Origin: Elusimicrobiota bacterium
Lineage (GTDB): Bacteria > Elusimicrobiota > Elusimicrobia > UBA1565 > UBA9628
Reading direction: 5' to 3'
Assembly: GCA_016182905.1 (NCBI GenBank)
Contig: JACPFR010000045.1
Span: forward strand, 1-52,893
DNA length: 52,893 nucleotides
Of the stretch, positions 6,303 through 49,079 are shown piece after piece; the stretch's first letter is position 1, and every line of letters begins with the position of its first letter. The notes beneath the pieces are model-generated. The model made no database searches, was not told the DNA's origin, and worked only from the letters and a program-made list of their open reading frames with translations. Position numbers and translations under genes: made by a program.

Positions 6303-6315
6303 TGGAGGTCTCCTG

Positions 6316-6942
6316 TCAGATGAGGTAGAGCAGCGGGAAGAGGAACACCCAGACCACGTCGACGAAGTGCCAGTACAGGCCGGCGTACTCCGCGCGGCGC
6401 GCGACGGCGGGCATCGGGGCGCGGGCGGAGGCGAACAGCGCGACGCCGTTCCAGACCAGGCCGGCGACGATGTGCAGGCCGTGGAGGATGGTGAGCATGT
6501 AGTAGTACGACAGGAAGATCGACAGCCCCGGGCTCGCCTTGGCCAGCTCCGAGCCCGGATAGTAGCCGTGGGAGACCTTGAGCGCGTACTCCGCGGACTT
6601 CACGACGAGGAACCCGAGGCCCAGGACGATGGTCGCGATCATGTTCGCGCGGTACCCCGCGCGGTCGGCGCGCTCGGCGCGCGTGATGGCGCGGACCATG
6701 GTGTAGGAGCTCGTGAGCAGGAGGACGGTGTTCAGCGCGGCCATAGCCAGGCCGGGCAGGTGGCCCGCCTCGGGCCAGACCACGACGCCGAGGGCGCACT
6801 CGGGATTGCCCAGGCGCGTGCCGACGTAGGACGCCAGGAAGGCGCCGAACAGGAGTATCTCCGACAGGATGAACAGCCAGAGGCCGACCTTGCCCCCCTC
6901 GTCCTCTCGCCAGTCGGCGTCCGCCGTGATCGCTGCTTCCAT
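6316..6942 (-). CDS. ctaE: cytochrome c oxidase subunit III
   Basis: The product has 208 residues and five helices, the short form of subunit III without the first two helices. Recognisable blocks are KVGLWLFILSEILLFGAFLA near the N-terminus, LLTSSYTMVRA, HGLHIVAGLVWN and YWHFVDVVWVFLFPLLYL at the end, the last being the family signature. It stabilises subunit I and its oxygen and proton pathways. It starts three bases after the Rrf2-type regulator stop and is the first structural gene of the operon. Confidence 0.95.
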   Translation of the reverse strand: MEAAITADADWREDEGGKVGLWLFILSEILLFGAFLASYVGTRLGNPECALGVVVWPEAGHLPGLAMAALNTVLLLTSSYTMVRAITRAERADRAGYRANMIATIVLGLGFLVVKSAEYALKVSHGYYPGSELAKASPGLSIFLSYYYMLTILHGLHIVAGLVWNGVALFASARAPMPAVARRAEYAGLYWHFVDVVWVFLFPLLYLI

Positions 6943-32632: not shown

Positions 32633-34394
32633 GGGCGGACCTCCGGGCGGACGCGAGATGCGCGGCGTACTGGCGGTAGAACGGCAGGCGGCACAGCGGC
32701 AGCAGCTTCTCGAGGGTGCGGCGCGCTCCCGCGAGGCCCATCTCGAAGTCCTTGCTCGAGAAGCGCGCCTTGCCGGCGCGCGTGATCCGCCAGTCGAAGA
32801 CGATGTCCGAGTACACGGCCGCGAAATCGCCCGCCCGCAGGGCGCGCTCGAGCTCCCACGGGCTGCGGAAGACCGCGACGCGCGCGTCCGAGAGCGCCGA
32901 AGGAAGGACCGGGGGCTCGCCGTGGCGGTCGTAGTAGACGAGGTCCACGCCGAAGCCCATCTCCATCGCCATCGTCGCCAGCGGCGCCCCGTGGCCGTAG
33001 CGCAGCTCGACGAGGCGCGGCAAGGTCGCCTCCGAGACGACGAAGCCCAGCCGGAGCCCGGAAGCCTCCCGGCGCAGCTCCTCCCAGGACGGCAGGAAGG
33101 CGGACATCCGCGCCGCCCAGGCCTTGTCGAACGCCTCCGCCTTGCCGGCCGCGGCCGCGACGCCCCGCAGGCACCGGCGGGTCCCCTCGACGCCGTAGGG
33201 CGCGCTCACCGGCACGACGGGCCGCGGCGAGGCCTCGAGCAGCTCGCGCACCTTGGTCGGGTAGGAGCTGCGCTCGCAGAAGACCTGCCACCGCGCCTTG
33301 GGCAGGCCGTTCAGGGACGGGAAGCTCACGTCCGGGAACACGGAGACGCCGATCCCGAGGCCGAGGTCGTCCAGGAACGGCCGGATCTCCTCCTCGCGCA
33401 CGCGCTTCGGGAAATGGAAGAGGTTGACCAGGCGCTCGTCGCCGGGCTCCGCGAAGAAGCCCGGCGCGCTCAGCAGGGAGCGGAAATGGGCCCCGAAGTT
33501 GTCGTTCTCGTCGCGGTCCTTCTGGCTCCAGCTCACCGAGGACCCGCCGATCTCCTTCTCGCAGCGCCGCGCGAGCCCCTGGAAATCCTCGCCCATGATG
33601 ATCGGCGTGCACAGGTGCGTGAAGAGGAGGTAGTCGCCGGGCTTGGCCCGCTTGCGGACCTCCTCGACCAGGGCGTCGGCCCGCTCTCCGGTGCCCATGA
33701 CCATGTCCCGCTCCTCGAGTTCGGTCACGATGCTCCCGTCCCGGGCGCCTTCGTCCTCGGGCTCGCCCGCGCCCCTCTCCTCGCCGTTCTCGCTCTCCTC
33801 CGGCCAGTCCATGAAGCTCCATTTGGCGAAGCTGCGCCGGGGCCGCGCGTAGTAGCACTCGAGGTCGGCGTACTCGATGTTGATCGTCTTCTCGGTGGTG
33901 CAGGAGGGCACGCCCAGCAGCACCTCGAAGTCCTGGTCGGCGTAGAAGTTCCTCCACCCGGCCTCGAGCAGCGCCATCGGCTGCCCGATGCACGGCACCT
34001 TGACCTTGTCCCCGTCCTGCCCGGGCGCGACCTTCTCCGTGAAGGACAGGGGGTCGGCGTCGAGCACGGCCGCGACGTCGGACAGGGTCCGCTCGCCGAG
34101 GCGGGACGCGAAGACCTTCAGCAGCTTCAGGACGGCCGGCCCCGCGGCGCCCTTGGGCGCCAAGGCGAGCCCGGGCGCGCGGACGGCGGCCTCGGTCGAG
34201 GAGCGCGGCAGGAGGTAGACGACGAGGCGGTGGGCGCCGCTCGTCAGGCTCAGGCGCACGCGCGGGCTCTCCCGTCCCAGCGCGCAGGCGCCGTCGAGCC
34301 TCCAGCCCGCCCCTCCCGCCTTGAGCCCCATCAGGCTCTCCACGGCGGCGAGGGCCGCGGGCCCCGCCGTGACGTGCCGCTCGCCCGGGATCAT
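32625..34394 (-). CDS. NifD-like nitrogenase component 1 protein
   Basis: The product has 589 residues. A leading domain (about 15-120, AGWRLDGACALG and HRLVVYLLP) is followed by the NifD-like part from LLEAGWRNFYADQD (142-155). C180 in EYADLECYY corresponds to NifD Cys88, C262 in FTHLCTPIIMGED to Cys154; the Cys62 equivalent is absent. C373 (WQVFCERSSY) falls where NifD has its FeMo-co ligand Cys275, but the C-terminal region that should supply His442 reads YSDIVFDWRITRAGKARFSS without a matching His. LEERDMVMG parallels QEKDIVFGG. An acidic stretch (200-220) is inserted. It follows a NifH-like gene by seven bases. Confidence 0.88.
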   Translation of the reverse strand: MIPGERHVTAGPAALAAVESLMGLKAGGAGWRLDGACALGRESPRVRLSLTSGAHRLVVYLLPRSSTEAAVRAPGLALAPKGAAGPAVLKLLKVFASRLGERTLSDVAAVLDADPLSFTEKVAPGQDGDKVKVPCIGQPMALLEAGWRNFYADQDFEVLLGVPSCTTEKTINIEYADLECYYARPRRSFAKWSFMDWPEESENGEERGAGEPEDEGARDGSIVTELEERDMVMGTGERADALVEEVRKRAKPGDYLLFTHLCTPIIMGEDFQGLARRCEKEIGGSSVSWSQKDRDENDNFGAHFRSLLSAPGFFAEPGDERLVNLFHFPKRVREEEIRPFLDDLGLGIGVSVFPDVSFPSLNGLPKARWQVFCERSSYPTKVRELLEASPRPVVPVSAPYGVEGTRRCLRGVAAAAGKAEAFDKAWAARMSAFLPSWEELRREASGLRLGFVVSEATLPRLVELRYGHGAPLATMAMEMGFGVDLVYYDRHGEPPVLPSALSDARVAVFRSPWELERALRAGDFAAVYSDIVFDWRITRAGKARFSSKDFEMGLAGARRTLEKLLPLCRLPFYRQYAAHLASARRSARG

Positions 34395-34401: not shown

Positions 34402-35226
34402 TCACCAGCCCTTGTAGAACCGCCGGTCGTCCATCGGCGTCGGGATCGGGCAGTCCTCCTTGCGGATGTCGAGTATCTTCTTGGCCAGCGACGCGAGGCT
34501 CTTCGAGAACGGGCTCTTCGGCGCCATCTCGACGACGGTGTTCTTGCGGGCGAACTCCGCCTTGCGCACGGCGGGGTCGCGCGGCACGAACTCGAGGATG
34601 CGCGTGCCGAGGATCTCGGCGAACGTCTCGAGCTTCCTGCGCTCCACCTTGCCGTCCTTGAGGTTCGCCACGAGGCCCGCGAGGTAGACGCCGTTGGAGG
34701 CGTAGGTCCTCACGGACTTCGCGATGTTGTTGGCCGCGTACAGCGCCATCAGCTCCTCCGAGACCACGATGACGATCTTCTCGGCGAAGCCCTTGCGCAG
34801 CGGCGCGGCGAAGCCGCCGCACACGACGTCGCCGAGGACGTCGAAGACCCGCGCGTCGTAGCCGCCCGCCTTCAGCACGCCGAGGTCCTGCAGCGCCTCG
34901 AGCATCAGCGAGATGCCCCGGCCGGCGCAGCCCACGCCCGGCTCCGGCCCGCCGGCCTCGACGCAGTCGATGCCGAGGCGGCCCTTGACGATGAGGTCCG
35001 AGGGCTTGAGCTCGCCGTGGTCGCGCACCCCGAAGATGCGGGTGTACTTCTCCATGAAGGTCTCGATGAGTTCGCCGTCGACGAGCCCCAGCGTGCTGTC
35101 GTGCTTCGGGTCGCAGCCGACGTGCAGGACCTTGAGGCCCTGCAGCGCGTAGACCGAGCTGAGGTTCGAGGAGATCGTGGACTTCCCGATGCCGCCCTTG
35201 CCGAACACGACGATGTTGTTCTCCAT
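34402..35226 (-). CDS. NifH-like iron protein (stand-alone)
   Basis: The product has 274 residues, the normal NifH length. P-loop GKGGIGKST (9-17), HVGCDPKHDS, the subunit-bridging cluster ligands C100 (GVGCAGRGI) and C136 (VVCGGFAAP), and switch residues DVLGDVVCGG are all present. This is an ATP-driven one-electron donor as a homodimer with one [4Fe-4S]. It sits between another NifH-like gene (2-nt gap) and a D-like gene, and could serve several D/K pairs of the cluster. It ends KGW without a long tail. Confidence 0.93.
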   Translation of the reverse strand: MENNIVVFGKGGIGKSTISSNLSSVYALQGLKVLHVGCDPKHDSTLGLVDGELIETFMEKYTRIFGVRDHGELKPSDLIVKGRLGIDCVEAGGPEPGVGCAGRGISLMLEALQDLGVLKAGGYDARVFDVLGDVVCGGFAAPLRKGFAEKIVIVVSEELMALYAANNIAKSVRTYASNGVYLAGLVANLKDGKVERRKLETFAEILGTRILEFVPRDPAVRKAEFARKNTVVEMAPKSPFSKSLASLAKKILDIRKEDCPIPTPMDDRRFYKGW

Positions 35227-35228
35227 GC

Positions 35229-36071
35229 TCACTTCGCTCTCCTGTAGATCCTCTGCCCGCGCGCGAACTCGGCGAACTCGGCGGCGGGCATGGGCCGCGC
35301 GGCGGCGCCGGGGACCGCGCCCCGCCGCGCCTCGATCGCCTTCGCCAGGTCGCGGAAGCGGGCCGCCGCCGCTCCCTTCGGAGCGTGCTCGAAGACGGTC
35401 AGCCCCAGCTCCTCCGACTCCAGGATGTCCGGGTCGCGCGGGATGACGGCCGTGATGTCGACGCCGAGGCGCGAGGCGAAGGCCTCGAGGTGCCCGGGGC
35501 GCACGTCGTTCTGGCGCAGGTTGAAGATGATCCCCCCGACGAACACGCCCTCGTGGTAGGGCGCCGACGCGACGCGGACGATGTTGTTGGCCGCGAACAG
35601 CGACGCCGTCTCCTCGGAGGAGACGATGTACACGTCGCGGCCGAGGCCGAAGCGCAGGGGCGCGACGAAGCCTCCGCAGACGAGGTCCCCGAGGACGTCG
35701 AAGATGAGGGTGTCGTAGGCGCCGACCTCGCGCGCGTGCTCCTCCAGGAACTGGCACAGCGTGGCGACGCTGCGGCCCCCGCAGCCCTGCCCCGGAGGCG
35801 GCCCGCCCGTCTCCAGCACGTCGAGCCCCGGCCGGCTGCTCGTCACGAGCTCGCGGAACCCGTGGCCTTCGAGCCCCGTCACCATGTCGACGATGGTCGG
35901 CGCGCGCCTGCCGCCCATGAGGCGCAGCGACGTGTCCGCCTTGGGGTCGCAGCCGAGGAGCAGGACCTCGCGGCCGTCGCGGGCGAAGCTCGCCGCGAGA
36001 TGGGCGCACGTCGTGGACTTGCCCACGCCGCCCTTCCCGTAGACGACGACCGTCAGCGGCCTGCGCTTCAT
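35229..36071 (-). CDS. divergent NifH-like iron protein
   Basis: The product has 280 residues. P-loop GKGGVGKST (12-20), LGCDPKADTS, and the cluster cysteines C97 and C132 are present, but the loop around the first is unusual (GGPPPGQGCGGRS instead of GGPEPGVGCAGRG). This changes the docking surface for component 1. IIFNLRQNDV replaces the VANLRD block of the other NifH copies. It follows directly on the most degenerate K-like protein (ATGA overlap at 36071), so the two may belong together. Electron transfer role inferred from family. Confidence 0.9.
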   Translation of the reverse strand: MKRRPLTVVVYGKGGVGKSTTCAHLAASFARDGREVLLLGCDPKADTSLRLMGGRRAPTIVDMVTGLEGHGFRELVTSSRPGLDVLETGGPPPGQGCGGRSVATLCQFLEEHAREVGAYDTLIFDVLGDLVCGGFVAPLRFGLGRDVYIVSSEETASLFAANNIVRVASAPYHEGVFVGGIIFNLRQNDVRPGHLEAFASRLGVDITAVIPRDPDILESEELGLTVFEHAPKGAAAARFRDLAKAIEARRGAVPGAAARPMPAAEFAEFARGQRIYRRAK

Positions 36072-37300
36072 GATCGCGGACGCCCGGAGGCCTCGTCGCG
36101 CAGGATGGCCGAGGCGACGCGGTCGACGAGATGGCGGAAGCCCGCGTAGCCGAGGAACGGACGCTCGGCGACGGGATGCTCGACGTAGTTCGGATAGCCG
36201 ATCGGCACGTGCACGGCGTCGTCGGGCGAGAGGTCGCTGCCCGTGGGGGCGAGGCACACCGGGCGGATCCTCTTCTCGAGCGGCCCCAGGGCCGTCAGCA
36301 GGGCCGGGTCGGCCAGCAGACCCAGCTCGGCGCACAGCTCCCGCAGGGCCGCCGTCAGGTGGGGATCGTCCTGCAGGACCTCGGCGACGCGGCCCGAGAT
36401 GACCCGCAGCACGTGGGCCTGCGTGTCGCGCACCGCGGCGCGGCTCTCCCGGGCGGCCAGCGGCGCGGCCTCCCGCCCGCGTCCGGCGGACGCGGCGACC
36501 TTGCGGAGGAACCTCTCGGTGGCGGACAGCCCGAGCGGCAGCTCGGCCTCGCAGAGCCTGGCCCCGGTCCGCTCGGCCACGACGCGGGCCGCCTCGCGCG
36601 CGTAGGGAAGAGAGATCACGAGGCTCGCGCGCTCCGCCGCCTCCAGCTCCGCCCGGCCTCCGCCGGACAGCCAGACGGATTCCACGCGCAGGCCGAGGGC
36701 CTCGAGCAGGCGCCTCAGCTCGCGCAGGTTCCCGGCGTGGTCCGGCTCGTCGCGGTCGTGGAGATAGCCGACCAGCGCGACGGCGTCCTTCCCGCGGCGG
36801 CCGGGGCGGAGCGTCACGCTCCGGGCCAGCGCCTCGCAGGTCCGCGCGTAGCCGTCGAGCCAGGTGCCGCCGAGCGAGCGCGAGGGGATATGGCAGAGCA
36901 GCGGCCCGCCGGGCCGCGCGTGGCGGCGCGCGACCTCCTTCAGCGGGAAGTTCACGAGCTCGTGGAAATCGAAGGTCGTCGACAGCACGATCCCGGCGTC
37001 GGGCTGGGCGCAGACCCCCGCGAAGACGGCGTCGACCTGGGCGTTGCGGTCGGTCGAGAGGCTCTTGACCTCCTCGCGGTCCTGGACCTGTCCGGTGTGC
37101 ACGACGCGGCGATGGCCGATCGGCGGCAGCAGGCGGCAGCGCAGGTTGTGGCAGTACTGCATCTCGGCCTTGGTGAAGACGCAGTAGGGGCCGTCGACGA
37201 CGAGATAGGCCCCCGCGAGGGCGTCGACGGCGACGTATACGCCGTTGAGGAAAGGCAGGCGGAAGGATTCGACCGCGGCGGCGAGGCTGTTCTCGATCAT
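36068..37300 (-). CDS. divergent NifK-like protein missing one cluster cysteine
   Basis: The product has 410 residues from the ATG at 37300 (ATGA overlap); an ATG at 37309 is an equally open choice. VVDGPYCVFTKAEMQYCHNL (35-54) keeps the first ligand (C40) but replaces the IHGRHDL block of the other K-like proteins. The second ligand region reads GIVLSTTFDFHELVNF, with Phe110 where the others have Cys. GTWLDGYARTCEALA, YLHDRDEPDHAGNLRELRRL and a C-terminal IGYPNYVEHPVAERPFLGYAG confirm the family. This chain could hold an incomplete cluster site or use another ligand, as BchB uses Asp. Confidence 0.85.
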   Translation of the reverse strand: MIENSLAAAVESFRLPFLNGVYVAVDALAGAYLVVDGPYCVFTKAEMQYCHNLRCRLLPPIGHRRVVHTGQVQDREEVKSLSTDRNAQVDAVFAGVCAQPDAGIVLSTTFDFHELVNFPLKEVARRHARPGGPLLCHIPSRSLGGTWLDGYARTCEALARSVTLRPGRRGKDAVALVGYLHDRDEPDHAGNLRELRRLLEALGLRVESVWLSGGGRAELEAAERASLVISLPYAREAARVVAERTGARLCEAELPLGLSATERFLRKVAASAGRGREAAPLAARESRAAVRDTQAHVLRVISGRVAEVLQDDPHLTAALRELCAELGLLADPALLTALGPLEKRIRPVCLAPTGSDLSPDDAVHVPIGYPNYVEHPVAERPFLGYAGFRHLVDRVASAILRDEASGRPRS

Positions 37301-38982
37301 GATATCCATGGCGCCAGGCAGGCGCGGTGACGGGCGAAGGGGCGCGACTCGCATTTCAACAGGAGCCGGCACGCGGACCGCAGCAGGCCCGCCGGCCCGG
37401 GCTCGAAGACGTTGTCGTTGAAGCCCGGCAGGCCGTGCGCCTCGAGGCGCGGGTCGTGGTTGAAGTGCGTGAAGGCCAGGTCGACCCCGCGGCGCAGGAG
37501 CCGGTCGAGCCCGGCGCGGGTGGAGAACGGGACGAACTCGATCGAGCCCGCGCCCTTCGCCTCCGGGGGCCGGCGCAGGGCCGCGGCCGCGGAGGGCGCG
37601 GGGCTCCAGACGAGGCAGCGCACGCGGAAGCCCAGCTCGCACAGCAGCCCCGCCGTCGAGAAGCCGAAGGTCCGGCCGCGCGAGGCCAGCAGCTCGAGGT
37701 CGGCGGCGTCGCCGATGAGCGCCGCCGTGCGCGCGCGGCAGCGCGGGATCAGCGCCTCGAGCCCGGCGGCCGCCGCCGCGGGGACCTCCGCGGGCGCGTC
37801 CAGGCCCAGGACGGAGACGACGCGCGCCAGCCAGGCGCGGGTCCCGGCGAGGCCGAACGGAGGGTGATGCCGGACGACGCGCAGGCCGCGCCGCAGGAAG
37901 ACCCCGTCCTCGATCTTCGCCCAGCCCACCGGGTCGTACCAGACCACCGCGCCGGCCGCGCCGATCTCCGGGAAGGAGCGGACGTCGAGGTTCGGGAAGA
38001 GCGCGCCCACGACGCGCAGGCCGAGGCCGCGGCACAGCCCGGCGGCCTCCTTCGCCGCCGCCTCGGACGGCAGGCCGGCGAGGATGACGGCCTTCGGGTC
38101 GCGGGCCGGAGCGAACTCGACCTCATCGAGCAGGCGATCGACGAGGGCCTCGTAGACCGGGCCCGAGTTGCGGGTCTTCGACGTCCACAGCACCGGCACG
38201 CCCAGCTCGCGCTCGATGCGCTCGATGAACGGCGCGGGCGTGTCCCCGACGAGCTCCGGCAGGCAGGTGGTCTTCAGATGGATGAAGGCCGGCTTCTCCT
38301 CGCGCGCGACCCGCTCGAGGACGCGCCCGAGGATCTCCTGCGTGCGCCCGCCCACGACGTCCGCCTCGCCGATGTCGGTGTCCGTGTAGGAGAAATCCCC
38401 CTCCGCCGCGCGGGGGCCGTCCTCGGCGAAGAAGCGCAGCGGCGCCACCTCGAGCCGCGGGTTGTTGGCGTTGCACTCCAGCGTCGCGTGGCTGATCTGC
38501 GCGTAGCGCGCGCCGAAGCGGACGTCCTGCTCGAGGAAGCGCACGTCCGGGTGGACGAACTTCCAGAAGCGCGAGCCGTGATCGACGGCCCGGAAATAGG
38601 TCTCGAAGCGCGACGGGACCGAGTCCCCGCCGGGGTCGGAGTAGAGCAGGGCGTCGCGGTTGAGGCGCGCGAGGAGCTCCGCGAAGCCCTCTCCCGCCAG
38701 GCCCGCCGCGATCGCGCCCGTCACGGCGCGCTCGTCGCCGGCGGGCTCGCCGCCGCGGCCATCGGTCCCGAGCCGGGCGCGCCCCCCCGCGTCCCGGACG
38801 ATCCGCAGGTCGAGCCGGCGGCGGTCCTTGGCCAGGACGAGCTCGACCTCGGTCCCGCGAAGGAACGCCTGCTCCAGCTCCCACCCCGCGGGCGGGCCGC
38901 CGAGGATCCCCTTGAGGTGCAGAAGCCCGTCCAGTCCGAGCCGGTGACGCGGGGCCGCCGGGTGGTTTTTTTCTATATGCAT
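37297..38982 (-). CDS. NifD-like nitrogenase component 1 protein (type 2)
   Basis: The product has 561 residues from the ATG at 38982. A leading domain (about 15-110) includes GGPPAGWELEQAFL. C170 (HATLECNANN) and C240 (HLKTTCLPELVGDT) are the two cluster cysteines. It is closely related to the C-terminal half of the fusion at 39032-42376 and distinct from the three VMGED-type D proteins. The C-terminus HFNHDPRLEAHGLPGFNDNVFEPG is shared with that fusion only. The start codon is uncertain: the motif at 38983-38999 lies right against the ATG and predicts transcription from about 38972, and no ribosome site is seen. Confidence 0.86.
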   Translation of the reverse strand: MHIEKNHPAAPRHRLGLDGLLHLKGILGGPPAGWELEQAFLRGTEVELVLAKDRRRLDLRIVRDAGGRARLGTDGRGGEPAGDERAVTGAIAAGLAGEGFAELLARLNRDALLYSDPGGDSVPSRFETYFRAVDHGSRFWKFVHPDVRFLEQDVRFGARYAQISHATLECNANNPRLEVAPLRFFAEDGPRAAEGDFSYTDTDIGEADVVGGRTQEILGRVLERVAREEKPAFIHLKTTCLPELVGDTPAPFIERIERELGVPVLWTSKTRNSGPVYEALVDRLLDEVEFAPARDPKAVILAGLPSEAAAKEAAGLCRGLGLRVVGALFPNLDVRSFPEIGAAGAVVWYDPVGWAKIEDGVFLRRGLRVVRHHPPFGLAGTRAWLARVVSVLGLDAPAEVPAAAAAGLEALIPRCRARTAALIGDAADLELLASRGRTFGFSTAGLLCELGFRVRCLVWSPAPSAAAALRRPPEAKGAGSIEFVPFSTRAGLDRLLRRGVDLAFTHFNHDPRLEAHGLPGFNDNVFEPGPAGLLRSACRLLLKCESRPFARHRACLAPWIS

Positions 38983-39031: not shown

Positions 39032-42000
39032 CTAATCTGTGCCGTCGCTGAGAATGCCGCTCCCCGAAAGGAAGGCGCGATGCCGGGGGAACGGCCGAGC
39101 CCGGCATTTCATCAGCAGGCGGCCGCCCGAGGCCAGCAGGCCGTCGAGGCCGGGCTCGAACGCGGCTTCGGTGAAGCCCGGCAGGCCGAGGGCCTCGAGG
39201 CGCGGGTCGTGATTGAAATGGGTGAAGGCGAGGTCGGCTCGCCTCGCGAGAGCGCGCTCGAGCTGGGCGCGCGTCGAGAACGGCGCCGTCTCGATCGTCC
39301 CGGCGCCGTGACCCTTGCGCGGCCGCCGCGCGCCCGCCGCGTCCGCCGTGCCGCCGGGGCGGAAGGCCAGGCAGAGCACGTTGAAGCCGAGCTCGCCGAG
39401 CAGCTCCGCCGGAGCGAAGCCGAGGGCGCCCCGCCGCGCGACGAGGAGCTCGAGATCGGCCTCGTCCCCGATCAGGGCCGCGGTACGCCGGCGGCACTCC
39501 GCCCTCAGCGCCTCGAGCTTGGCCGCGCGCGCCGCCAAGACCCGGTCGAAGGCGTCCTCCTCCCCCTGCAGGCCCAGGACCGAGGCGACCCGGCCGAGCC
39601 AGGCGCGCGAGCCGTCGAGCCCGTAAGGCGGATGGGTGCGGACCACGGCGAGGCCGCGGCGGAGGAAGGGCGAGTCCGGGATCGTCTCCCAGCCCACCGG
39701 GTCGAGCCACACGACCGCGCTCGCCGAGCCCATCTCGGGCGCCCGGCGGAAGTCCAGGTCGGGGAAGAGGGTCCCGACCACGCGCAGGCCGAGCGCGCCG
39801 CACAGCTCCTCGGCCTGCGCCCGCGCCTCGGGCGAGGGAACGCCGGCGAGCAGGACCGCCCGCGGGTCGGGGCGGGCGGCCGGCCGGCTCGCGTCCAGGA
39901 GGCGCTCGACCCAGGACGAGTAGACCGGCCCGCCCGGCCGGGTCTTCGAGGTCCAGAACACGGGCACGCCCAGCTCGGTCTCGATGCGGCGCATGAAGGG
40001 CACGGGGGTGTCGCCGATCAGCTCCGGGAGGCAGGTGGTGTTGAGATGGATGTAGGCCGGCGCCTCGCGGCGAGCCGTCTCCTCGAGCGCGCGGCCGAGG
40101 CGCTCCTGCGTGCGCCCGCCGACGACGTCCGCCTCGGTGACCTGCGTCTCGATGTCAGCGCAGCCGTCCTCGCCCGCCTCCGGGCGCTCGCCGGCGAAGA
40201 AGCGCAGCGACGGAGCCCCGGGCTCGGGGTTCGCCAGGCGGCACTCGAGCGTCGCGTAGTTGATGCGGGCCCAATGCGAGCCGAGGTTCACCTTCTCCTC
40301 CAGGCAGCGCCATTGGGGATAGACGAACTTCCAGAAATCCCGCGAGTGGTCGACGACGCGGTAGTAGCGCTCCAGCCGCGACGGGATCCGGCTGCCGTCC
40401 GGATCGGAGAAGAGCAGGTCGTCGCGGCGCAGGCGCGCGACGATCGCGTCGAAGGTCGTCGCGGCGAGGCCCGCGGCGATCGTCGCCGCGAGCCCGGCGT
40501 CCTCGCCCGACGGCTCGCCCCGGGACGAGCGCAGGCGCGCGCCGGGCTTGCCCCGTCCCTGCGGCGCGACGTCGAACTCCAGCCTCCGCGGGCCCCGGAC
40601 GAGCGAGAACTTGACCCCGCCGGGCGTCAACGACGAGGTCTCGAGCTCCCAGCCCCCGGGAGGACCGCCGATCAGGCTCTTGAAGTAGGCGAGGCCGTCC
40701 CGCCCGAGCTGGCTCCGCGGGGCGTCCGCCGCGGCCTCCGGGGAACCGGGGGCGCTCCGGCGCTTCTCGGCCGCGGCGATCGACGCGCGGGAGACGGCGT
40801 CCTGGAGGAGCATCTCCCGCGCGAAGGGCGCCCGCGCGGCCTCCATCACCTCGAGCAGGGAGAGCGCGATCCGCAGCGGCCTGACCGGGAGGTCGGGATC
40901 GGCGTTCGCCTCGCGGTACAGGCGGGCGGCCAGGTCGAACAGGGGGTCTCCGCGGAAATGGGCGCAGGCGTCGCCGTCGCGCTCGGCGGCGCAGACGCGC
41001 ACCAGCAGGGCGAAATACGCGGCGACCCTCTCGTCCTTGAAGCGCCACGCCCGCACCCCGGTGAGCTCCCCCTCGTTCTTGAAGAACCCGTAGTACTGGC
41101 CCGGGTCCGGGAACTCGCCGGCCAGCACGCCGCCCTCCTTCTCCGCCAGGCGGAAGATGGGCGAGCTCTCCTCGAGGAGGAGGATCGAGTACAGCCAGTA
41201 GCCGCACTCGGGGAAGCCCCGGGCGGCCGCGAGCTCCAGGTTGAGGCGGACGTCCGCGAGCGTCGTCCAGGGGGTGAACAGGATGAACCCGAGCTCGACC
41301 GCCGCGTTCCCGTCCTTGAAGGGCCGGAAGACGCCGGGGTAGGCGTTCCCCCAATTCTTCGCCAGCGCGAGGAACTCGTCGACCTGCTCCAGGCTGATCC
41401 GCTTGTTGAAGCGCGCGTTCTCGCTCTCCGAGAAGTTCTCGACGCCCATGCTCAGCAGGCGCACCTCGTGCCCGGCCTTCGCCAGCGCCGGCAGGACCCG
41501 CTCGATGCGGGCGCGCCGGCGGAGGACGTCGTCGATCCGGGGATTGAAGAGGAAGACCGACGGGGGCAGCTTCAGCCGCAGCACGAGCGCGAAGAGCTCG
41601 TCGAAGCGCCAGAACGCGCGGATGTCGAAGAACTCGTAGCGTCCCTTGTCCCGGCCGCTCCGCCCCGCCGTCTCCAGCGTCCTGCGGAGCTGGGTCTCGA
41701 GCAGAGGCATGATCCCCGTCGGCGGAGCGGTGAGGGGCGGCATGAGGGCGCAGTCGCAGAAGGCGCAGCCCCGGTGCTTCGCGGCCCCGAGGTCCAGGCC
41801 GTGGTAATGGGGGTTGTCCTCCAACGTCCGACGGTAGGCGCACATCGTCCCGCTGACGAAAGTGATCTGCGGCGCGGCGGCGCGCGCCGCCGCGTTGGCG
41901 AGCACGGCCGAGTAGTCGGGGACGGCTTCCTCGACGAGGTAGCGCCGCGCGGCCGCGGGGTCCGGGCGGCCGAGCCAGTCGAGGAACCAGCCGCAGCGGG

Positions 42001-42376
42001 CGAAGTCCTCGTGCTGCTCGCCGGGGGCGCCGCCGGGCAGCTCCCCGAGCGTCGGCATGACGAGCAGCTCGGGCGGCCGGGCGAGCGCGGCCAGCAGATC
42101 CCGCGCCCCGAGGCTCAGCGCGTCGTTGCTCACGACGTGCGTGGGACGGAACCGGGCGGCGCGGCGGGCGAGCGAGCGGAGGTCCTCCGCGGGCAGGTCG
42201 GCGTGGAGCGCGCGCCCGACGGGCGCTCCGCCGCGGTGCTTCATGCCGCCGCCGTAGCAGAGCCAGAGCGTCTCGCCGCCGCGCTCGCGGGCCAGACCCT
42301 GGAGGAACGGGAAGAACAGGCTGCTCTCGTTGCGCCGGAGAGCCCCGCGGAAGAACTCGAGCAGGAGGAGCCTCAT
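39032..42376 (-). CDS. fusion: radical SAM protein plus NifD-like domain
   Basis: The product has 1114 residues in one uninterrupted frame. Residues 1-540 resemble B12-type radical SAM enzymes: an N-terminal Rossmann-like part, HRGCAFCDCAL (C204, C207, C209), LLSMGVENFSESENARFNKR and a later GFILFTPWTTLADVRLN. The cysteine spacing is CxxCxC instead of CxxxCxxC; C179 (GTMC) might complete the site. Residues 555-1114 are a NifD-like domain with C712 (YATLECRL) and C782 (HLNTTCLPELIGDT), paralogous to the next gene. Such a fusion ties radical chemistry directly to a nitrogenase-like reductase. It has no K-like partner of its own directly behind it. Weak ribosome site; gap of 8 nt. Confidence 0.88.
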   Translation of the reverse strand: MRLLLLEFFRGALRRNESSLFFPFLQGLARERGGETLWLCYGGGMKHRGGAPVGRALHADLPAEDLRSLARRAARFRPTHVVSNDALSLGARDLLAALARPPELLVMPTLGELPGGAPGEQHEDFARCGWFLDWLGRPDPAAARRYLVEEAVPDYSAVLANAAARAAAPQITFVSGTMCAYRRTLEDNPHYHGLDLGAAKHRGCAFCDCALMPPLTAPPTGIMPLLETQLRRTLETAGRSGRDKGRYEFFDIRAFWRFDELFALVLRLKLPPSVFLFNPRIDDVLRRRARIERVLPALAKAGHEVRLLSMGVENFSESENARFNKRISLEQVDEFLALAKNWGNAYPGVFRPFKDGNAAVELGFILFTPWTTLADVRLNLELAAARGFPECGYWLYSILLLEESSPIFRLAEKEGGVLAGEFPDPGQYYGFFKNEGELTGVRAWRFKDERVAAYFALLVRVCAAERDGDACAHFRGDPLFDLAARLYREANADPDLPVRPLRIALSLLEVMEAARAPFAREMLLQDAVSRASIAAAEKRRSAPGSPEAAADAPRSQLGRDGLAYFKSLIGGPPGGWELETSSLTPGGVKFSLVRGPRRLEFDVAPQGRGKPGARLRSSRGEPSGEDAGLAATIAAGLAATTFDAIVARLRRDDLLFSDPDGSRIPSRLERYYRVVDHSRDFWKFVYPQWRCLEEKVNLGSHWARINYATLECRLANPEPGAPSLRFFAGERPEAGEDGCADIETQVTEADVVGGRTQERLGRALEETARREAPAYIHLNTTCLPELIGDTPVPFMRRIETELGVPVFWTSKTRPGGPVYSSWVERLLDASRPAARPDPRAVLLAGVPSPEARAQAEELCGALGLRVVGTLFPDLDFRRAPEMGSASAVVWLDPVGWETIPDSPFLRRGLAVVRTHPPYGLDGSRAWLGRVASVLGLQGEEDAFDRVLAARAAKLEALRAECRRRTAALIGDEADLELLVARRGALGFAPAELLGELGFNVLCLAFRPGGTADAAGARRPRKGHGAGTIETAPFSTRAQLERALARRADLAFTHFNHDPRLEALGLPGFTEAAFEPGLDGLLASGGRLLMKCRARPFPRHRAFLSGSGILSDGTD

Positions 42377-42384: not shown

Positions 42385-43716
42385 TCAGCGCGCTCCGGAC
42401 CGCCGCTCCCGCGGGGTCATCCAATCCAGGCAGAAGCCCTTGGTCACCTCGTTGGCCAGCCGCGAGCAGAACCCCAGCGCCCCGCGGAACCCCAGGAAGG
42501 GCTCGTCCTTCAGGAAGTGGGTGTAGTCGGACGGGTAGCCGAACTCGAGCCAGGACGTCTCCGGCCGGAGGAACTCGACGGCCATCGTCGTCGCCACGAG
42601 GACGTCGGCGTCCCGGCGCTTGAGGCCGAGCCAGTCCCGCTGGAGGTCGTTCTGCATCGGCTCGAACACGGTCCGGGGGCGCGCCGACAGCGCGGCCCGC
42701 TCGGCCTGCGGCAGGTGCCGCTCCCCGCCCAGCAGGATCATCCCCGCGATCTCCCCGCCCAGCTCCTCGATCATCTCGGCGAACGGCGCGGCGTAGTGCG
42801 GGTCGCTGACGTAGGCGAAGCGGCGGCCCAGGAAGGCGTGGGGCACGGACCACTCGAGCGCCGGCGCGACCGCGTCCAGCTCCGCGCGGACGAAGGCCGC
42901 GGCCTCCGCCTCCCGGCCGAACTCGCGGCCGAGCGACTCGACGAAGCGCCTCGTCGCGGCCAGGCCGAACGGGAGCTCCGCCTCGACGAGCCGGACCCCC
43001 AGCCTCCGGGCGAGTATCGCCGCCGCCTTGCGCCCGTGCCCGAAGGAGACGACGGCGCCGGCCCGGCGCGCGTCGCGCAGGCTCTCGTAGCCGCCGCCGG
43101 ACAGCCAGGTGGAGACGGGCTCCAGCCGCAGGGCGCGGAGGATCCGCTCGATCTCGCGGACGTTGCCCCGGTGGTCGCCCTCGTTGCGCCCCATCATGTA
43201 GCCGACCACGGCCACGTTCTCCGGGCGGGGCTCGGCCGGCGAGAGGTCCATGTCCTTGGCCATCGCCTCGAGGACCGCGTTATATCCGTCGAGCCAGTCT
43301 CCCGCCAGGCCGATCTGCGGAGGCACGACGAAGGCGGGCTTGAAGCCCCCCGCGAAGACCTGCCTGACGATGCGGGCGTAGTCGGTGCCCGCGATCGTGC
43401 ACATCGGCACCGAGCCCATGAAGACCGCGCCGCACGCGGGCCGCCGGGCGATGCGCTCGAGGCCGGCGGCGATCTCGCCCTCGAGGTTGCCGGCGATGTT
43501 GAAGACGCTCAGCCCCGTGTAATGGACGCGGTGCTCGCCCTGGCAGGACATCAAGGTCGAGAAGAGGTCGTGGCGCCCGTGGATCTGCTCGCCCTTGGCC
43601 CGGATGCAGTCGGGACCGTCGCCGAGGAAATAGGCGTCGGAGATCGCGTTCAAGGCCAGGAACGCGCCGTGGAGATACGGGGGGTTGAGCCTCACGCCCG
43701 GAGCCTTGGCGGTCAT
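42385..43716 (-). CDS. NifK-like nitrogenase component 1 protein
   Basis: The product has 443 residues. GDGPDCIRAKGEQIHGRHDL (32-51, C37) and SVPMCTIAGTDY (C106) mark the two retained cluster-cysteine regions. GDWLDGYNAVLEAMAKDMDL and YMMGRNEGDHRGNVREIERI are K-set blocks. The end FGYPSDYTHFLKDEPFLGFRGALGFCSRLANEVTKG mirrors NifK. The start overlaps the D-like gene at 43713 by four bases (ATGA), marking the pair as a heterodimer. Confidence 0.88.
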   Translation of the reverse strand: MTAKAPGVRLNPPYLHGAFLALNAISDAYFLGDGPDCIRAKGEQIHGRHDLFSTLMSCQGEHRVHYTGLSVFNIAGNLEGEIAAGLERIARRPACGAVFMGSVPMCTIAGTDYARIVRQVFAGGFKPAFVVPPQIGLAGDWLDGYNAVLEAMAKDMDLSPAEPRPENVAVVGYMMGRNEGDHRGNVREIERILRALRLEPVSTWLSGGGYESLRDARRAGAVVSFGHGRKAAAILARRLGVRLVEAELPFGLAATRRFVESLGREFGREAEAAAFVRAELDAVAPALEWSVPHAFLGRRFAYVSDPHYAAPFAEMIEELGGEIAGMILLGGERHLPQAERAALSARPRTVFEPMQNDLQRDWLGLKRRDADVLVATTMAVEFLRPETSWLEFGYPSDYTHFLKDEPFLGFRGALGFCSRLANEVTKGFCLDWMTPRERRSGAR

Positions 43717-45467
43717 CGGGACGGCCTCCCGGCGACGCGGGCCAGGTGCTCGCCGTATCGCTCGTAGAACGGCAGGCGGCATACCGCGAGCAGCCGGCGC
43801 AGGGAGCGCACGGCGCCCTCGAGGCCCATCTCGAAGTCCTTGCTGGAGAACCGCGCCTTGCCCGCCGCGCTCACCCGCCAGTCGAAGAAGATGTCCGAGT
43901 ACACGGCCCGGAACTCCCCCTCGCGCAGCAGCCGCGTCAGCTCCGCCGGGGTCCGGAAGGGCGTCAGCCGCGCGCAGCGGGAGTCCCGCGCGGCCTCCGG
44001 GCCCTCGTTGTGCGGGTCGTAGCAGAGGACGTCGACGCCGAATCCCATCTCCTCGATCATGCGCATCATCGGCGCGCCCTGGCCGTGCCGCAGCTCCCAG
44101 AGCATCGGCAAGGTCGTCTCCGACACGACGAACGCCAGACGGAAGTCCCTCGCCCGCGCGGTCAGCTCCTCCCATTCGGGCTTCACGGCGGCGAGCTTGC
44201 CCTTCCAGACGGCCTCGAACGCCTCCTCGCGTCCCGCGGCCCTCGCGACGGCGCGCAGGCACTCGCCCGTGTCCTCGAGGCCGTACGGGGCCCGCACGGT
44301 CAGGACCGGCCGCTCCCCGCCGGCCAGGAGCTCCGGCAGCTTGGACTGGTACGAGGTCGCCGCGCCGAAGACGTGCGCCGCGGCGCGCGGGATCCGCTCC
44401 ATCGACGGGAAGTCCACGTCCGGGAACAGGCGCGTGTTGACCTCCACGCCCATCTCCTCCAGCATCGGGACCAGCTCCGCGTCGCGGTAGTCCGTCGGGA
44501 AATGGAACAGATTGACGGCGTTCCTCGCGGCCGGGACGTCCCAGTAGCCCGGCGCGGCGAACAGCGCCTTGAAGTGCTCGCCGAAGTTGTTCAGCTGGTC
44601 GCGGTCGCCGTGGCTCCAGCACACCGTCTTCAGGCCGCTGGCCTCCTCGATGCGGCGCGTGATGGACCCGGAGTCCTCGCCCATGACGATCGAGGTGCAG
44701 AAGTGGTTGAAGACGACGTAGTCGGCGTCGGCCCCGGCCGACGCCTTGGCCACCGACTCGACGAGGGCGTCGGCCTTCTCGACCGCCCCCAGGACCATGT
44801 CCCGCTCCTCGAGCTCCATCACGATCCCGGTGCGGAACACCGTCGCCCCGAAGCTGTCGGACGGCACGCGGACCGGGTACGCGAAGAAGGACCACTTGCG
44901 CGGATCGTTGCCGGACCAGGAGTAGAGGCATTCGCGGTCGGAGTAGCGCGCGTAGATCGTCCTGTTCATCTTCAGCTCGGGGTAGCCGAGCAGGACCTCG
45001 TAGTCCTGGTCGGCGAAGAAGTTCCGCCAGCCCGCCTCGAGCAGGTTGATCGGTCCCGCCGCGATGGGCACGCGCAGCGCGCTCGTCGAATCGCCGCCCG
45101 GCGTCATCTCGACGAAGGTGTCCGGATCCTCCGAGATGATCGTCAGGACGTCCTCCAGGGTCCGCTTCCCGAGCCGCGCGGCCAGCGCCGCGATCAGGCG
45201 CTTCATGGCCGGGCCGGGGTCGCCCTCGGCCGCGATCGACAGGCCGGCGGTCTCGGCGGCGGCGCTCGGCGCGCCCTTGGGCAGGAGGTAGAAGGCCAGG
45301 CGCAGACCGCCCTTGCTCAGGCCGACGCGCACGTTCGTCGCGCCGACGCCGCACAGGGAGCGGATCGTCCAGCCGTCGGCGGCCGCCGTCAGCCCCAGGA
45401 GCTTGGCGACGGCCGTCGTGGACCGTCCGCCCGCCAGAAGGTGCGGGACCTGCGCCGTGAAGGACAT
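43713..45467 (-). CDS. NifD-like nitrogenase component 1 protein
   Basis: The product has 584 residues. A leading domain (about 15-120) contains ADGWTIRSLCGVG and LRLAFYLLP. The NifD-like part begins near LLEAGWRNFFADQD (142-155); C180 (YSDRECLYSW) and C257 (FNHFCTSIVMGED) are the cluster cysteines. At the Cys275-equivalent position it has Gly (HVFGAATSY) where two sister proteins have Cys, so this paralogue cannot bind a cofactor through that residue. LEERDMVLG corresponds to QEKDIVFGG. The C-terminus YSDIFFDWRVSAAGKARFSS is nearly identical to that of 49072-50685. TGATG overlap with the radical SAM gene upstream. Confidence 0.88.
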   Translation of the reverse strand: MSFTAQVPHLLAGGRSTTAVAKLLGLTAAADGWTIRSLCGVGATNVRVGLSKGGLRLAFYLLPKGAPSAAAETAGLSIAAEGDPGPAMKRLIAALAARLGKRTLEDVLTIISEDPDTFVEMTPGGDSTSALRVPIAAGPINLLEAGWRNFFADQDYEVLLGYPELKMNRTIYARYSDRECLYSWSGNDPRKWSFFAYPVRVPSDSFGATVFRTGIVMELEERDMVLGAVEKADALVESVAKASAGADADYVVFNHFCTSIVMGEDSGSITRRIEEASGLKTVCWSHGDRDQLNNFGEHFKALFAAPGYWDVPAARNAVNLFHFPTDYRDAELVPMLEEMGVEVNTRLFPDVDFPSMERIPRAAAHVFGAATSYQSKLPELLAGGERPVLTVRAPYGLEDTGECLRAVARAAGREEAFEAVWKGKLAAVKPEWEELTARARDFRLAFVVSETTLPMLWELRHGQGAPMMRMIEEMGFGVDVLCYDPHNEGPEAARDSRCARLTPFRTPAELTRLLREGEFRAVYSDIFFDWRVSAAGKARFSSKDFEMGLEGAVRSLRRLLAVCRLPFYERYGEHLARVAGRPSR

Positions 45468-46450
45468 CAAGGACCTCCCGTGCGGTGATCCGAGCCCGGC
45501 GCGACGAGGACCTCGCGCCGCCAGAACTCCCGCATCCGTTTTCCGACCGCCAGATTGTTGAGCATGTCCCGGCGCGCCGCGCCGTCGACGTCGGCGGCGC
45601 GCAGGCGGCGCAGCTGATCCCGCGGCCCGACGCTCCGCCCGGGAAGGCGCTTCAGCCCGCTCACCGGGCCGATCAGGAACGAGCCGTGGAGCCCCGGCCA
45701 CAGGCGCTCGAGCACGACCGAGGTGCCGACGTACAGGCGCCCGTCGGTGTCGACGACGTGCTGGGGGCTCAGCAGCACGGGCTCGGCGTCGTTGCGGCGG
45801 TTGAACACCTCCGCCGGCGGGGACGCCGCGTCGGCCAGGCGGTAGGCGCGCCGCAGCTCCCGCTCGAGGGCCGCCAGCGACGGCTCGTCCCAGAAGACGC
45901 CGAGGGCGTAGCTGATCTGGAAGGCGCGCACGCCTTTCCCGAGCAGGAAGGCCACGCTCCGCGACAGCCGGCCGGCGGAGCCGGGGGTCGCGACGACGTT
46001 GACGAAGAAGGGCCGGCCGGAGCGGGCCAGCGCCGCGAGGTTGCGCTCGAGGACCGGCCAGAGGCCGCGGCCCGCCCCGCGCTGCGCGGTCTGCACGTCC
46101 TCGCCGCCGTCGAAGCTCAGCATCACGCGGGCGCCGAGCCGCCCGAGCTCGCGGACGCGCGCGGCGGTGAGGAGCAGCCCGTTGGTGGTGATCCCCAGGC
46201 TCAGGTCCTTGCGCTTCCGGGCGGCGGCCGCGGCCGCGTGCGCCAGGATCTCGCGCACGAGCCCGTACTCGACGAGCGGCTCGCCGCCCATGAGCTGGAG
46301 CTCCAGCGGCCCTTCCTCCCGGAGCAGGAGCTCGACGGCCCGGCGCCACGCGCTGCGGCTCATCGCGCCCCCCCCGTGATCCATGTGGCAGTACACGCAG
46401 GCCATGGGACAGGCCCGCGTCACGAGCAGGTCCAGGCGCAAGGGCCTCAC
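45467..46450 (-). CDS. radical SAM protein (anSME/SPASM-like core, no auxiliary Cys tail)
   Basis: The product has 327 residues from the GTG at 46450, chosen because it overlaps the previous stop as GTGA; an ATG at 46462 would add four residues. C14, C18 and C21 lie in RACPMACVYCHMDHGG, followed by LQLMGGEPLVEY and MLSFDGGEDVQTAQRG, the pattern of sulfatase-maturase-like enzymes. The C-terminus (DMLNNLAVGKRMREFW) has no cysteines, so only the SAM cluster is present. It sits between a radical SAM gene and a D-like gene. Substrate unknown. Confidence 0.85.
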   Translation of the reverse strand: MRPLRLDLLVTRACPMACVYCHMDHGGGAMSRSAWRRAVELLLREEGPLELQLMGGEPLVEYGLVREILAHAAAAAARKRKDLSLGITTNGLLLTAARVRELGRLGARVMLSFDGGEDVQTAQRGAGRGLWPVLERNLAALARSGRPFFVNVVATPGSAGRLSRSVAFLLGKGVRAFQISYALGVFWDEPSLAALERELRRAYRLADAASPPAEVFNRRNDAEPVLLSPQHVVDTDGRLYVGTSVVLERLWPGLHGSFLIGPVSGLKRLPGRSVGPRDQLRRLRAADVDGAARRDMLNNLAVGKRMREFWRREVLVAPGSDHRTGGP

Positions 46451-47781
46451 CGCGCCGGGCATGCCAGGGCCCCCAGGCCGAACCGCCGGGCGTACTCCGC
46501 CGGCACGCCCATGCAGCGGGCATCGTACGCGCACTTCCGGCAGCCGGGGCGCTTGGCGCGGCCGACGTCGCCGGTCTCCCCGGAGAAATCCTCCGCGTAG
46601 CGCACCCGCTCCCGGGAGAACTCGACGTCGCCCGCGTACGCCGCCGGATCGGCGACGAGGCAGGGCGGCATGGCGGTCTCGCCCGTGAACCGCTGGAGCA
46701 CGAGGCCCTCCTCGAGGCCGCGCGCCAGCGCCCGGCGCAGATAGGGCGCGGCCTTCTCCAGGTCGACGGCCATCGCCGGCGCGGCGTTCATCCCGGCCCC
46801 GTTCAGGAACGAGAAGGCGACCTCGAGGCGGCCCGCCCCCTTCCGGAGGCGCGCGCGCGCCAGCCGGCCCAGGAAGCCCACCAGCCCGGGCAGCGCGCGA
46901 TAGTTCTCCGCGTTGACCAGCACGCACGCCGTCACCCGGGCGCGGCCCGACTCCAGGAGGCGCCCCAGCCCCTCGACGACCTTGGGGAAGGTCGCGCGGC
47001 TGCCGGTGACGCGGGCGTGGAGGGCGGGCGTGTGCGCGTGGAAGGAGACGTCGAAGCCCTCCACCCCGAGGGCGAGGAGGCTCTCCAGGTAGCCGGGGCG
47101 GGCGAGGGCCGCCCCGTTGGTCTGCAGCACGAAGCGCCTCAGGCCGCGACGGCGCGCCGAGGCGATGATCTCCATCAGCCGCGGATCCACGGTGGGCTCG
47201 CCGCCGGACAGCACCAAGGTCCCGCCCGGGCCGAGGTCGCGGGCCAGGCCGTCGAGCTCGCGCTCGAGCTCGGCCCCGCCGGCCCCGCCGGCGCGGACGG
47301 GCACGAAGCAGAACGGGCAGCGGTGGTTGCAGGCCGAGGTGACGCGCAGGATCCGCTCGAGGCCCTCGCGACCCGCCTCGTGCGTCTCGGCGCGCGCGCC
47401 CGGAGGCCCTTCGCCCCGGCCGCGCAGGGACTCGAAGAGCAGGCACAGCGCCGAGGACAGCTCGCCGAGGGCCGCCTCGTCCTCCAGAGCCGTCCGCGTG
47501 CCCGGCAGGCGGCGCAGGTGGAACAGCGCGGGCACCGACGCCTTCCCGCCGCGGTACTCGAGGACGTACGCCGCGACGACGCGGCGCGCGCGCCGGACCG
47601 CGAGCACCACGCGGCCGCGGGGCGACGCGACGGCCAGGGTCCACCCTCGCCCGGCGAGCAGGGCCTGCACCGAGCCGACGAACGTGTTCTCCGGCCGCGC
47701 CGGCCCGGCGATCGCCCGCGCGAGCTCGCGCGCGCAATCCGCGAGGCGCCCCTCCGACAGCAAGGCCCGCGGTTCGCTCAC
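46447..47781 (-). CDS. radical SAM protein with GWxL-type N-terminal domain and C-terminal Cys motif
   Basis: The product has 444 residues from the GTG at 47781 (GTGA). A leading domain spans about 33-120 (LLAGRGWTLAVAS, RRVVAAYVLEYRG, LCLLFESLRG). The radical SAM core has C151, C155 and C158 (SACNHRCPFC), VLSGGEPTVDPRLM and LQTNGAAL. The tail GCRKCAYDARCMGVPAEYAR carries three cysteines. It is a full-length paralogue of 17740-18990, the two copies lying near opposite ends of the cluster. Its gene directly follows a D/K pair. Confidence 0.88.
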   Translation of the reverse strand: MSEPRALLSEGRLADCARELARAIAGPARPENTFVGSVQALLAGRGWTLAVASPRGRVVLAVRRARRVVAAYVLEYRGGKASVPALFHLRRLPGTRTALEDEAALGELSSALCLLFESLRGRGEGPPGARAETHEAGREGLERILRVTSACNHRCPFCFVPVRAGGAGGAELERELDGLARDLGPGGTLVLSGGEPTVDPRLMEIIASARRRGLRRFVLQTNGAALARPGYLESLLALGVEGFDVSFHAHTPALHARVTGSRATFPKVVEGLGRLLESGRARVTACVLVNAENYRALPGLVGFLGRLARARLRKGAGRLEVAFSFLNGAGMNAAPAMAVDLEKAAPYLRRALARGLEEGLVLQRFTGETAMPPCLVADPAAYAGDVEFSRERVRYAEDFSGETGDVGRAKRPGCRKCAYDARCMGVPAEYARRFGLGALACPAR

Positions 47782-49079
47782 GCCGCCCCCGCCTTCGTGC
47801 GCAGGCCCTTGACGACCTCGTTGGCCGCGCGCGAGAGGAAGCCCAGCGCGCCCTTGAACCCCAGGAAAGGCGCGTCGTCGAGGAAATGCGTGAACTCGGA
47901 CGGGAAGCCGAACTCGAGCCAGGGAATCTTCGGGTTGAGGTACTTGAGGCTGCGGCTGTTGCAGACGAGCAGGTCCACCTTCCAGCGCGTCGTCGCCCCG
48001 AACAGGCGCCGCAGCTTGGCGCGGTCCGGCTCGAACACCGTGCCGGGACGGGCCTCCAGCGCGCGCCGGCGCTCCGCGCTGAGATGGCCGGGGCGGCCCA
48101 TGACGACGGTCGCGACGAGGCGTCCCCCCACCTCCTCGATCATGTCGGCGAAGGCCTCGGCGTAGTGCGGGTCGCCCGCGAACGCGAAGCGGCGGTCGGC
48201 GAACGCGTGCGGGACGCTCCACTCCAGGCGCGGGACGACCGCGTCGAGCTCCGCGTCGACGAACCTCCGCGCCTCGGCCTCGCGGCCGAGCTCGCGGCCG
48301 AGGAGCTCGACGAAGCGGCGGCTGCCCTCCAGCCCGAACGGGAGCTCGGCCTCGACGAGCTTGACGCCCAGGCGCCGGGCCAGGACCCTCGCGGCCTCGC
48401 GGCCGTACGGGAGCGAGACGATCGCGCCCGCCTTGCGGACCTCGCGCAGATGCTCGTAGGGGCGGCCCGAGAGCCAGGTGGAGACGGGCTCGACGCCGAG
48501 CGCGCGCAGGATGCGCTCGAGCTCGCGCACGTTGCCCTGATGATCGCCCTCGTTGCGGTCCATCAGGTAGCCCACGACGGCCGCGCCGTTCCTGTCCGGC
48601 TTCGCCCCCGACAGGTCGATGCCCGACGCGATGACCTCGAGCCCGCCCGCGTAGCCGTCGAGCCAATCCCCGGACACGGCCGAGCGCCGCGGGATGAGGA
48701 ACGCGGGCTTGCCGCAGCCGGCGAGCGCGTCGCGCAGGATGCGCTCGTAGTCGGTGCCGGCGATGGCGCACATCGGCATCGCGCCCGTGAAGATGACGCC
48801 GGAGCTCGGCCAGCCGGCGATGCGCTCGAGCCCCTTGGCGATCTCCGCCTCGAAGCTCCCCGCGATGTTGAACACGTTGACGCCCGTGTACTGGATGCGG
48901 TGGTCGCTGCCGCACGAGAGCAAAGTGGAGAACAGGTCGTGGCGGCCGTGGATGTGCTCGGCCTTGGCGAACACGCAGCTCGGGCCGTCGCCCAGGAAAT
49001 ACGCGTCGGGGATGGCGTTGAAGGCCGCGTACAGGCCGTGGAGGAAGGGAAGGTTGAACCGGACGCCCGGGCTAGACAT
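47778..49079 (-). CDS. NifK-like nitrogenase component 1 protein
   Basis: The product has 433 residues. GDGPSCVFAKAEHIHGRHDL (30-49, C35) and AMPMCAIAGTDY (C104) give the two cluster-cysteine regions. GDWLDGYAGGLEVIASGIDL, YLMDRNEGDHQGNVRELERI and STWLSGRPYEHLREV are K-set blocks. The C-terminus FGFPSEFTHFLDDAPFLGFKGALGFLSRAANEVVKG mirrors NifK. It overlaps the D-like gene at 49072 by eight bases. Confidence 0.88.
   Translation of the reverse strand: MSSPGVRFNLPFLHGLYAAFNAIPDAYFLGDGPSCVFAKAEHIHGRHDLFSTLLSCGSDHRIQYTGVNVFNIAGSFEAEIAKGLERIAGWPSSGVIFTGAMPMCAIAGTDYERILRDALAGCGKPAFLIPRRSAVSGDWLDGYAGGLEVIASGIDLSGAKPDRNGAAVVGYLMDRNEGDHQGNVRELERILRALGVEPVSTWLSGRPYEHLREVRKAGAIVSLPYGREAARVLARRLGVKLVEAELPFGLEGSRRFVELLGRELGREAEARRFVDAELDAVVPRLEWSVPHAFADRRFAFAGDPHYAEAFADMIEEVGGRLVATVVMGRPGHLSAERRRALEARPGTVFEPDRAKLRRLFGATTRWKVDLLVCNSRSLKYLNPKIPWLEFGFPSEFTHFLDDAPFLGFKGALGFLSRAANEVVKGLRTKAGAA

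Follow-up and report, generated by a model that had tools for sequence, protein, structure and literature searches.

Nitrogenase-like enzymes act well beyond N2 fixation, where they carry out reductions related to chlorophyll, F430, methylthio-alkanes, and isethionate. Among radical SAM (rSAM) enzymes, those of the cobalamin type (OxsB, AprD4, TsrM, CysS, TokK, and MgmA) have the motif CxxxCxxC and combine, as does the rSAM family described here and named NSAM, a Rossmann domain with an rSAM core. In Meheust et al. 2020, ISME J 14:2907, many rSAM genes are said to accompany the group VI nitrogenase-like genes, with similar loci reportedly occurring in Myxococcales; to our knowledge, no description of the NSAM family, its motif, or its fusion is found in that work.

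The locus presented here resembles the group VI clusters, an assignment made by phylum and description only: both belong to Elusimicrobiota, and the nitrogenase-like genes of those clusters are proposed to have a putative role in tetrapyrrole metabolism (PMC11257099, PMC9391474). The locus type itself is already known. Two other systems offer precedents. In Rhodobacter capsulatus, an rSAM enzyme and NflHDK are jointly essential for isethionate use, and isrBHDK, where an rSAM gene lies beside HDK genes as it does here, exemplifies rSAM and nitrogenase-like genes working together (PMC11423573). As a fusion protein, the precedent is NifN-B of Firmicutes, in which an rSAM domain is likewise joined to a nitrogenase component-1 domain; unlike the protein studied here, it carries NifB motifs, serves FeMo-co synthesis, and belongs to a different rSAM family (PMC5715403).

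The locus and its open reading frame

The window, that is, the whole stretch of 52,893 nucleotides analysed here, is a single contig from a genome of 3.98 Mb that is 97% complete and exists as a draft in 63 contigs. Its central feature is a protein made of two halves:

39032-42376, minus strand: fusion protein of 1114 residues, with the rSAM half at about 1-530, a linker at about 530-550, and the D half at about 550-1114
40731-42376, minus strand: rSAM domain of the apparently new family NSAM, with a Rossmann-like domain (1 to about 140) and an rSAM core (about 170-510)
39032-40741, minus strand: nitrogenase-like D half (D1), PF00148, with an N-terminal extension of about 110 residues

The sequence-only reading of this DNA had described a single frame of 1114 residues joining a radical SAM-like half to a NifD-like half. 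The frame is real and uninterrupted, but it lies on the minus strand, from an ATG at 42376 to a stop at 39032, and the plus-strand translation of 39032-42376 is an anti-sense frame. The nature of the second half was confirmed by its PF00148 match, and that of the first is supported by homologues, profiles, and a structure model. The GC content per codon position (0.74/0.52/0.96) is coding-like, and the start methionine is common to homologues. It is hardly credible that an assembly artefact joined two genes here: even though the genome is a 63-contig draft and most named relatives are metagenome-assembled, the frame is continuous with uniform codon usage, and another assembly contains a further fusion of this kind (L035, JAMPYD010000073).

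Near the fusion, the minus strand carries genes for D/K pairs, for NifH-like ATPases, and for seven ordinary CxxxCxxC rSAM enzymes, and the order after D1 is D2, then K, H, and H:

37297-38982, minus strand: D2, a stand-alone nitrogenase-like D protein, 58% identical to the D half
36068-37309, minus strand: K, likely partner of D1/D2, which keeps the first cluster cysteine (GPxC) and is without the second
35229-36071, minus strand: NifH-like ATPase with the P-loop and both cluster cysteines
34402-35226, minus strand: NifH-like ATPase with the P-loop and both cluster cysteines
31310-34394, minus strand: pair of D (32625-34394) and K (31310-32623)
42385-45467, minus strand: pair of D (43713-45467) and K (42385-43716) that adjoins the fusion on its upstream side
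45467-46462 and 46447-47763, minus strand: two ordinary rSAM enzymes with CxxxCxxC
47778-50646, minus strand: pair of D (49072-50646) and K (47778-49079)
23901-27514, minus strand: NifH-NifD-type fusion (25172-27514) and its K (23901-25148)

The last of these joins NifH-like and D-like domains in one protein of 780 residues (PF00142 and PF00148), with its K after it, and the same one-frame H-D arrangement occurs in the relatives L032, L059, L098-L100, and L107. Inside the locus, 19958-20704 (minus strand) encodes a protein of the TP_methylase fold (PF00590) that could be tetrapyrrole- or RsmI-like, and a further NifH-like gene, oriented divergently to the main operon, reaches the window edge at 51992-52893 (plus strand). 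In the source genome as a whole, PF00148 domains occur in 15 places on two contigs, and a second nitrogenase-like locus with four of them lies at G000:C5:261232-270126.

Fold and relatives of the rSAM half

Against the Pfam Radical_SAM profile, the N-terminal half gives a match below the cut-off (E=0.01-0.05). Its AF2 model is confident (pLDDT 91.1, pTM 0.91), and the rSAM barrel expected by the sequence-only reading is recovered in it, together with an N-terminal Rossmann-like domain. The top Foldseek/VIA match is OxsB (Z 13.6), followed by AprD4 (13.2), MgmA (12.1), MiaB (12.0), TsrM (11.6), and CysS (11.5), so that matches with Z of 11-13.6 identify the barrel, and cobalamin-type rSAM enzymes stand at the top in both structure and sequence comparisons. 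QueE is absent among the fold matches listed, which carries no weight for or against a relationship. As judged from the model, this half is an rSAM enzyme of predicted cobalamin-type fold, a fold that by itself is no proof of cobalamin binding.

We refer to it as a variant rSAM rather than as a canonical member because CxxxCxxC is missing, yet the superfamily has accepted exceptions to this motif, namely QueE, HmdB, ThiC, and PhnJ (PMC4389238). The absence of CxxxCxxC and the Pfam scores under the cut-off also mean that NSAM is missed by motif-based annotation.

Named relatives of this half come from Elusimicrobiota and next from Myxococcota/deltaproteobacteria, including the isolate Polyangium fumosum; a search for homologues on viral contigs found none. 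Profile homology links NSAM to the CUAEP/CCAEP-tail rSAM family (NF040546) and to canonical relatives (L070-L085), with which it has TPWTT and KG motifs in common; unlike NSAM, L070-L085 have CxxxCxxC and are without the insert described below. ArsL (NF040542), considered as an explanation of the motif, was set aside: the NCBIfam match is weak and the ArsL motif is CX3CX2C (PMC8552651).

The domain also occurs in other combinations. In Myxococcota L060-L064 and L067, including Polyangium fumosum, the frame that encodes NSAM also contains an ordinary rSAM domain, and no nitrogenase-like gene was seen in the fetched flanks of these loci. In L035, two NSAM domains stand in tandem in one frame of 1274 residues (2982-6803, plus strand), with a second NSAM-D fusion on the opposite strand of the same 8-kb contig.

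A displaced first cysteine

Conservation of the motif was scored over 54 homologous NSAM domains, in which the cysteines of interest behave as follows:

41840-41842, minus strand: C179 (Cys1), invariant (54/54), five residues past the predicted first strand (171-174; DSSP of the model)
41756-41767, minus strand: C204-A205-F206-C207, that is, Cys2-x-aromatic-Cys3, with both cysteines and the aromatic residue in 54/54
41750-41752, minus strand: C209, outside the conserved motif, Cys in 7/54

All four cysteines are present where the sequence-only reading had placed them, although its choice of C204-x2-C207-x-C209 as the cluster motif does not hold: three of the residues it named are invariant and the fourth, C209, gives way to S, G, T, or V in the other sequences. 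CxxxCxxC was looked for in the homologues and found in 0/54. What is conserved instead is C-x(23-29)-C-x-[F/Y]-C, which in the window protein reads C-x24-C-x-F-C, and in the model the three invariant cysteines sit in the loop that connects strand 171-174 to helix 222-236, that is, the strand 1-helix 1 loop typical of the superfamily.

In profile alignments, C204 and C207 coincide with Cys2 and Cys3 of both OxsB (E=2e-4) and the canonical sister family (E=5.5e-18), and residue 204 falls on position 11 of the Pfam Radical_SAM profile, the Cys2 position. The CLHTC of the sister family aligns over KHRGC of the window protein, with the sister Cys1 over K200 and C179 lying 21 residues earlier, hence the long spacing in the NSAM motif. 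From these alignments, the canonical Cys1 appears to be lost and only Cys1 to have moved, so that, unlike in cobalamin-type rSAM enzymes, it stands 25 residues before Cys2.

A cluster bound by C204, C207, and C209 as CxxCxC, with C179 in a structural role, would be in keeping with the closeness of these three residues in the window protein and its nearest relatives, but the rarity of C209, the invariance of C179, and the canonical alignments that make C204/C207 the Cys2/Cys3 pair leave it very improbable. Since C209 varies and the other three do not, the alignment favours an ordinary three-cysteine [4Fe-4S] site, one that contains a long insert, rather than the new binding mode that had been suggested; the arrangement is indeed non-canonical, but as a lengthened form of the usual motif. 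QueE (7-carboxy-7-deazaguanine synthase), with CX14CX2C and a canonical cluster, shows such an extended Cys1-Cys2 spacing, although it differs from NSAM in its shorter spacing, its minimal core without a Rossmann domain, and its unrelated reaction (PMC4389238).

The insert itself is not random, as N188 (50/54) and P189 (48/54) are conserved in it. R280, E313, K325, P369, and W370 are invariant or nearly so in NSAM, and the positions common to canonical relatives (the aromatic residue before Cys3, E313, K325, and TPWTT) are intact, so a modified radical SAM function, the other option put forward earlier, finds no sign beyond the insert.

The nitrogenase-like half and its likely K partner

The D half belongs to the nitrogenase component 1 superfamily by both profile and fold: it matches PF00148 with E=2e-20 and 73.4 bits, over a curated cut-off of 28.6, and its model (pLDDT 78.8) comes nearest to the methylthio-alkane reductase (Mar) chain 9d9u_B (Z 21.8), with Z of about 17-20 for NifE, NifD, BchN, and BchB. 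Mar is its nearest relative in PDB sequence comparisons too. The NCBIfam equivalog cut-offs for DPOR (BchN), 420 and 324, are missed, with scores of about 39 bits. Wherever a D sequence has residues at these columns, C712 and C782 are kept, whereas C691 is confined to the D1 group.

In place of the FeMo-co cysteine ligand (C275 in NifD), the profile has E and the window protein has D, and no NifB gene was found in the 97% complete source genome. These two facts make N2 fixation and a NifB-type cofactor unlikely for the D half, which also differs from Mar and IsrBHDK in having no Cys at the ligand position and in being fused to an rSAM domain of another family. They also speak against a NifB-like maturase and scaffold, where the rSAM half would build a metal cluster and load it into the D half in the style of NifN-B. 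Such a role could draw on the NifB-NifN fusions of Firmicutes (PMC5715403) and on the rSAM genes that accompany nflHDK/isrHDK (PMC11423573); however, none of the NifB motifs HPC, ExRP, AGPG, TxTxN, and Cx2CRxDAxG (motif list of PMC5715403) is present, and with three invariant cysteines alone NSAM has no conserved extra Fe-S sites. We therefore reject a NifB-like function, improbable in our estimate, on motifs and genome content.

The N-terminal extension of about 110 residues (D half residues 1-110, about 40410-40741) is predicted to form an antiparallel sheet; it is also present in the D proteins at 32625, 37297, 43713, and 49072, and lies outside the coverage of the component-1 matches. A suspected common N-terminal domain between D subunits and the rSAM enzymes g20 and g40 found no support (hhalign probability 0.3%).

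Regarding the partner of D1, the earlier reading had seen no dedicated K directly behind it and had proposed that it may pair with the K at 36068 or form homodimers. The former is true of the window, where D2 stands between, but not of the relatives L088 and L092, in which K directly follows the D1 orthologue. This order makes the K at 36068 the likely partner, in agreement with the first of these two options. The K at 36068-37309 and its orthologues are without the second conserved cluster cysteine of other K proteins and have several group-specific cysteines in common. Given this particular cysteine set, the ligands of the D1-K cluster may be split 3+1 instead of 2+2.

Recurrence of the fusion

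NSAM is usually a stand-alone protein that often adjoins D-K-H operons, in Elusimicrobiota and in some Myxococcota/deltaproteobacteria. A D1 orthologue was found in six genomes (the window, G299/L035, G209, G300, G218, and G261), with 63-73% identity to the D half in the latter five, and every one of them has NSAM adjoining or fused. The two are fused in the window and in L035/L091, and lie directly side by side in the other four genomes, in opposite directions in G209, G300, and G261, and co-directionally in G218, where NSAM is the upstream gene. The two fusions contain rSAM paralogues from distant clades, only 29% identical, joined to D halves that are about 71% identical. A third NSAM paralogue clade is found in L033, directly upstream of D1 and unfused. 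The fusion to the same D orthologue, as these sequence relationships indicate, arose twice with different rSAM paralogues, and the fact that one D has been joined more than once, each time to another rSAM, argues for joint action of NSAM and D1. Over 34 family genomes, the figures for joint occurrence of NSAM and the D half are 10/11 versus 7/23 (Fisher p=0.002, a value that ignores kinship).

NSAM does not need D, since most members are unfused and many from Myxococcota have no D/K/H gene in the fetched flanks. This could be taken to mean that the fusion is a matter of chance, with a stop codon lost between adjacent operon genes and no mechanistic meaning; L033, whose NSAM and D1 genes point the same way with NSAM directly upstream, shows how easily such a set-up could fuse. 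Two fusions that involve the same D orthologue but distant rSAM paralogues, adjacency in 6/6 genomes, and the conservation of all key residues in both halves speak against it, and we hold a chance fusion to be unlikely.

Proposed function

We consider it probable that the fusion is a two-step enzyme of the group VI type. In this proposal, the rSAM half would bind one [4Fe-4S] cluster via C179, C204, and C207, with a 24-residue Cys1-Cys2 spacing of the QueE kind, cleave SAM, and modify a small-molecule substrate. The D half, as a nitrogenase-type alpha-like subunit, would pair with the K at 36068-37309, be supplied with electrons by the neighbouring NifH-like ATPases, and reduce the product of the rSAM half or its precursor, while the fusion would hold both consecutive steps together and might allow channelling. 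Against this proposal stand the Pfam scores of the rSAM core, the cluster cysteine missing in K and the place of D2, not D1, as its direct neighbour, and the many NSAM proteins that are unfused or encoded away from D/K/H genes in the fetched flanks.

The fusion suggests two consecutive steps toward a compound, probably a cofactor. Among the published ideas on loci of this kind, a tetrapyrrole-derived cofactor comes first (PMC11257099, PMC9391474), and tetrapyrroles are probably available in the source organism, whose genome has HemC and CobS genes. A bolder version, possible although on balance doubtful, would see in the fusion a two-reaction unit, a radical modification followed by ATP-driven reduction of the nitrogenase type, making a new cofactor in Elusimicrobiota and Myxococcota, with the conserved insert (N188-P189) shaping a new active-site entrance or docking the D half.

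Concluding remarks

Within a limited literature search, the NSAM family, its motif with a displaced Cys1, and its recurrent fusion appear to be new. A family that escapes motif-based annotation in this way also runs the risk of being mis-annotated. The role of the nitrogenase-like group of Elusimicrobiota has been proposed and is unproven; here, a natural fusion made twice with different rSAM partners indicates which rSAM enzyme acts with which nitrogenase-like subunit, and provides a single polypeptide to express.
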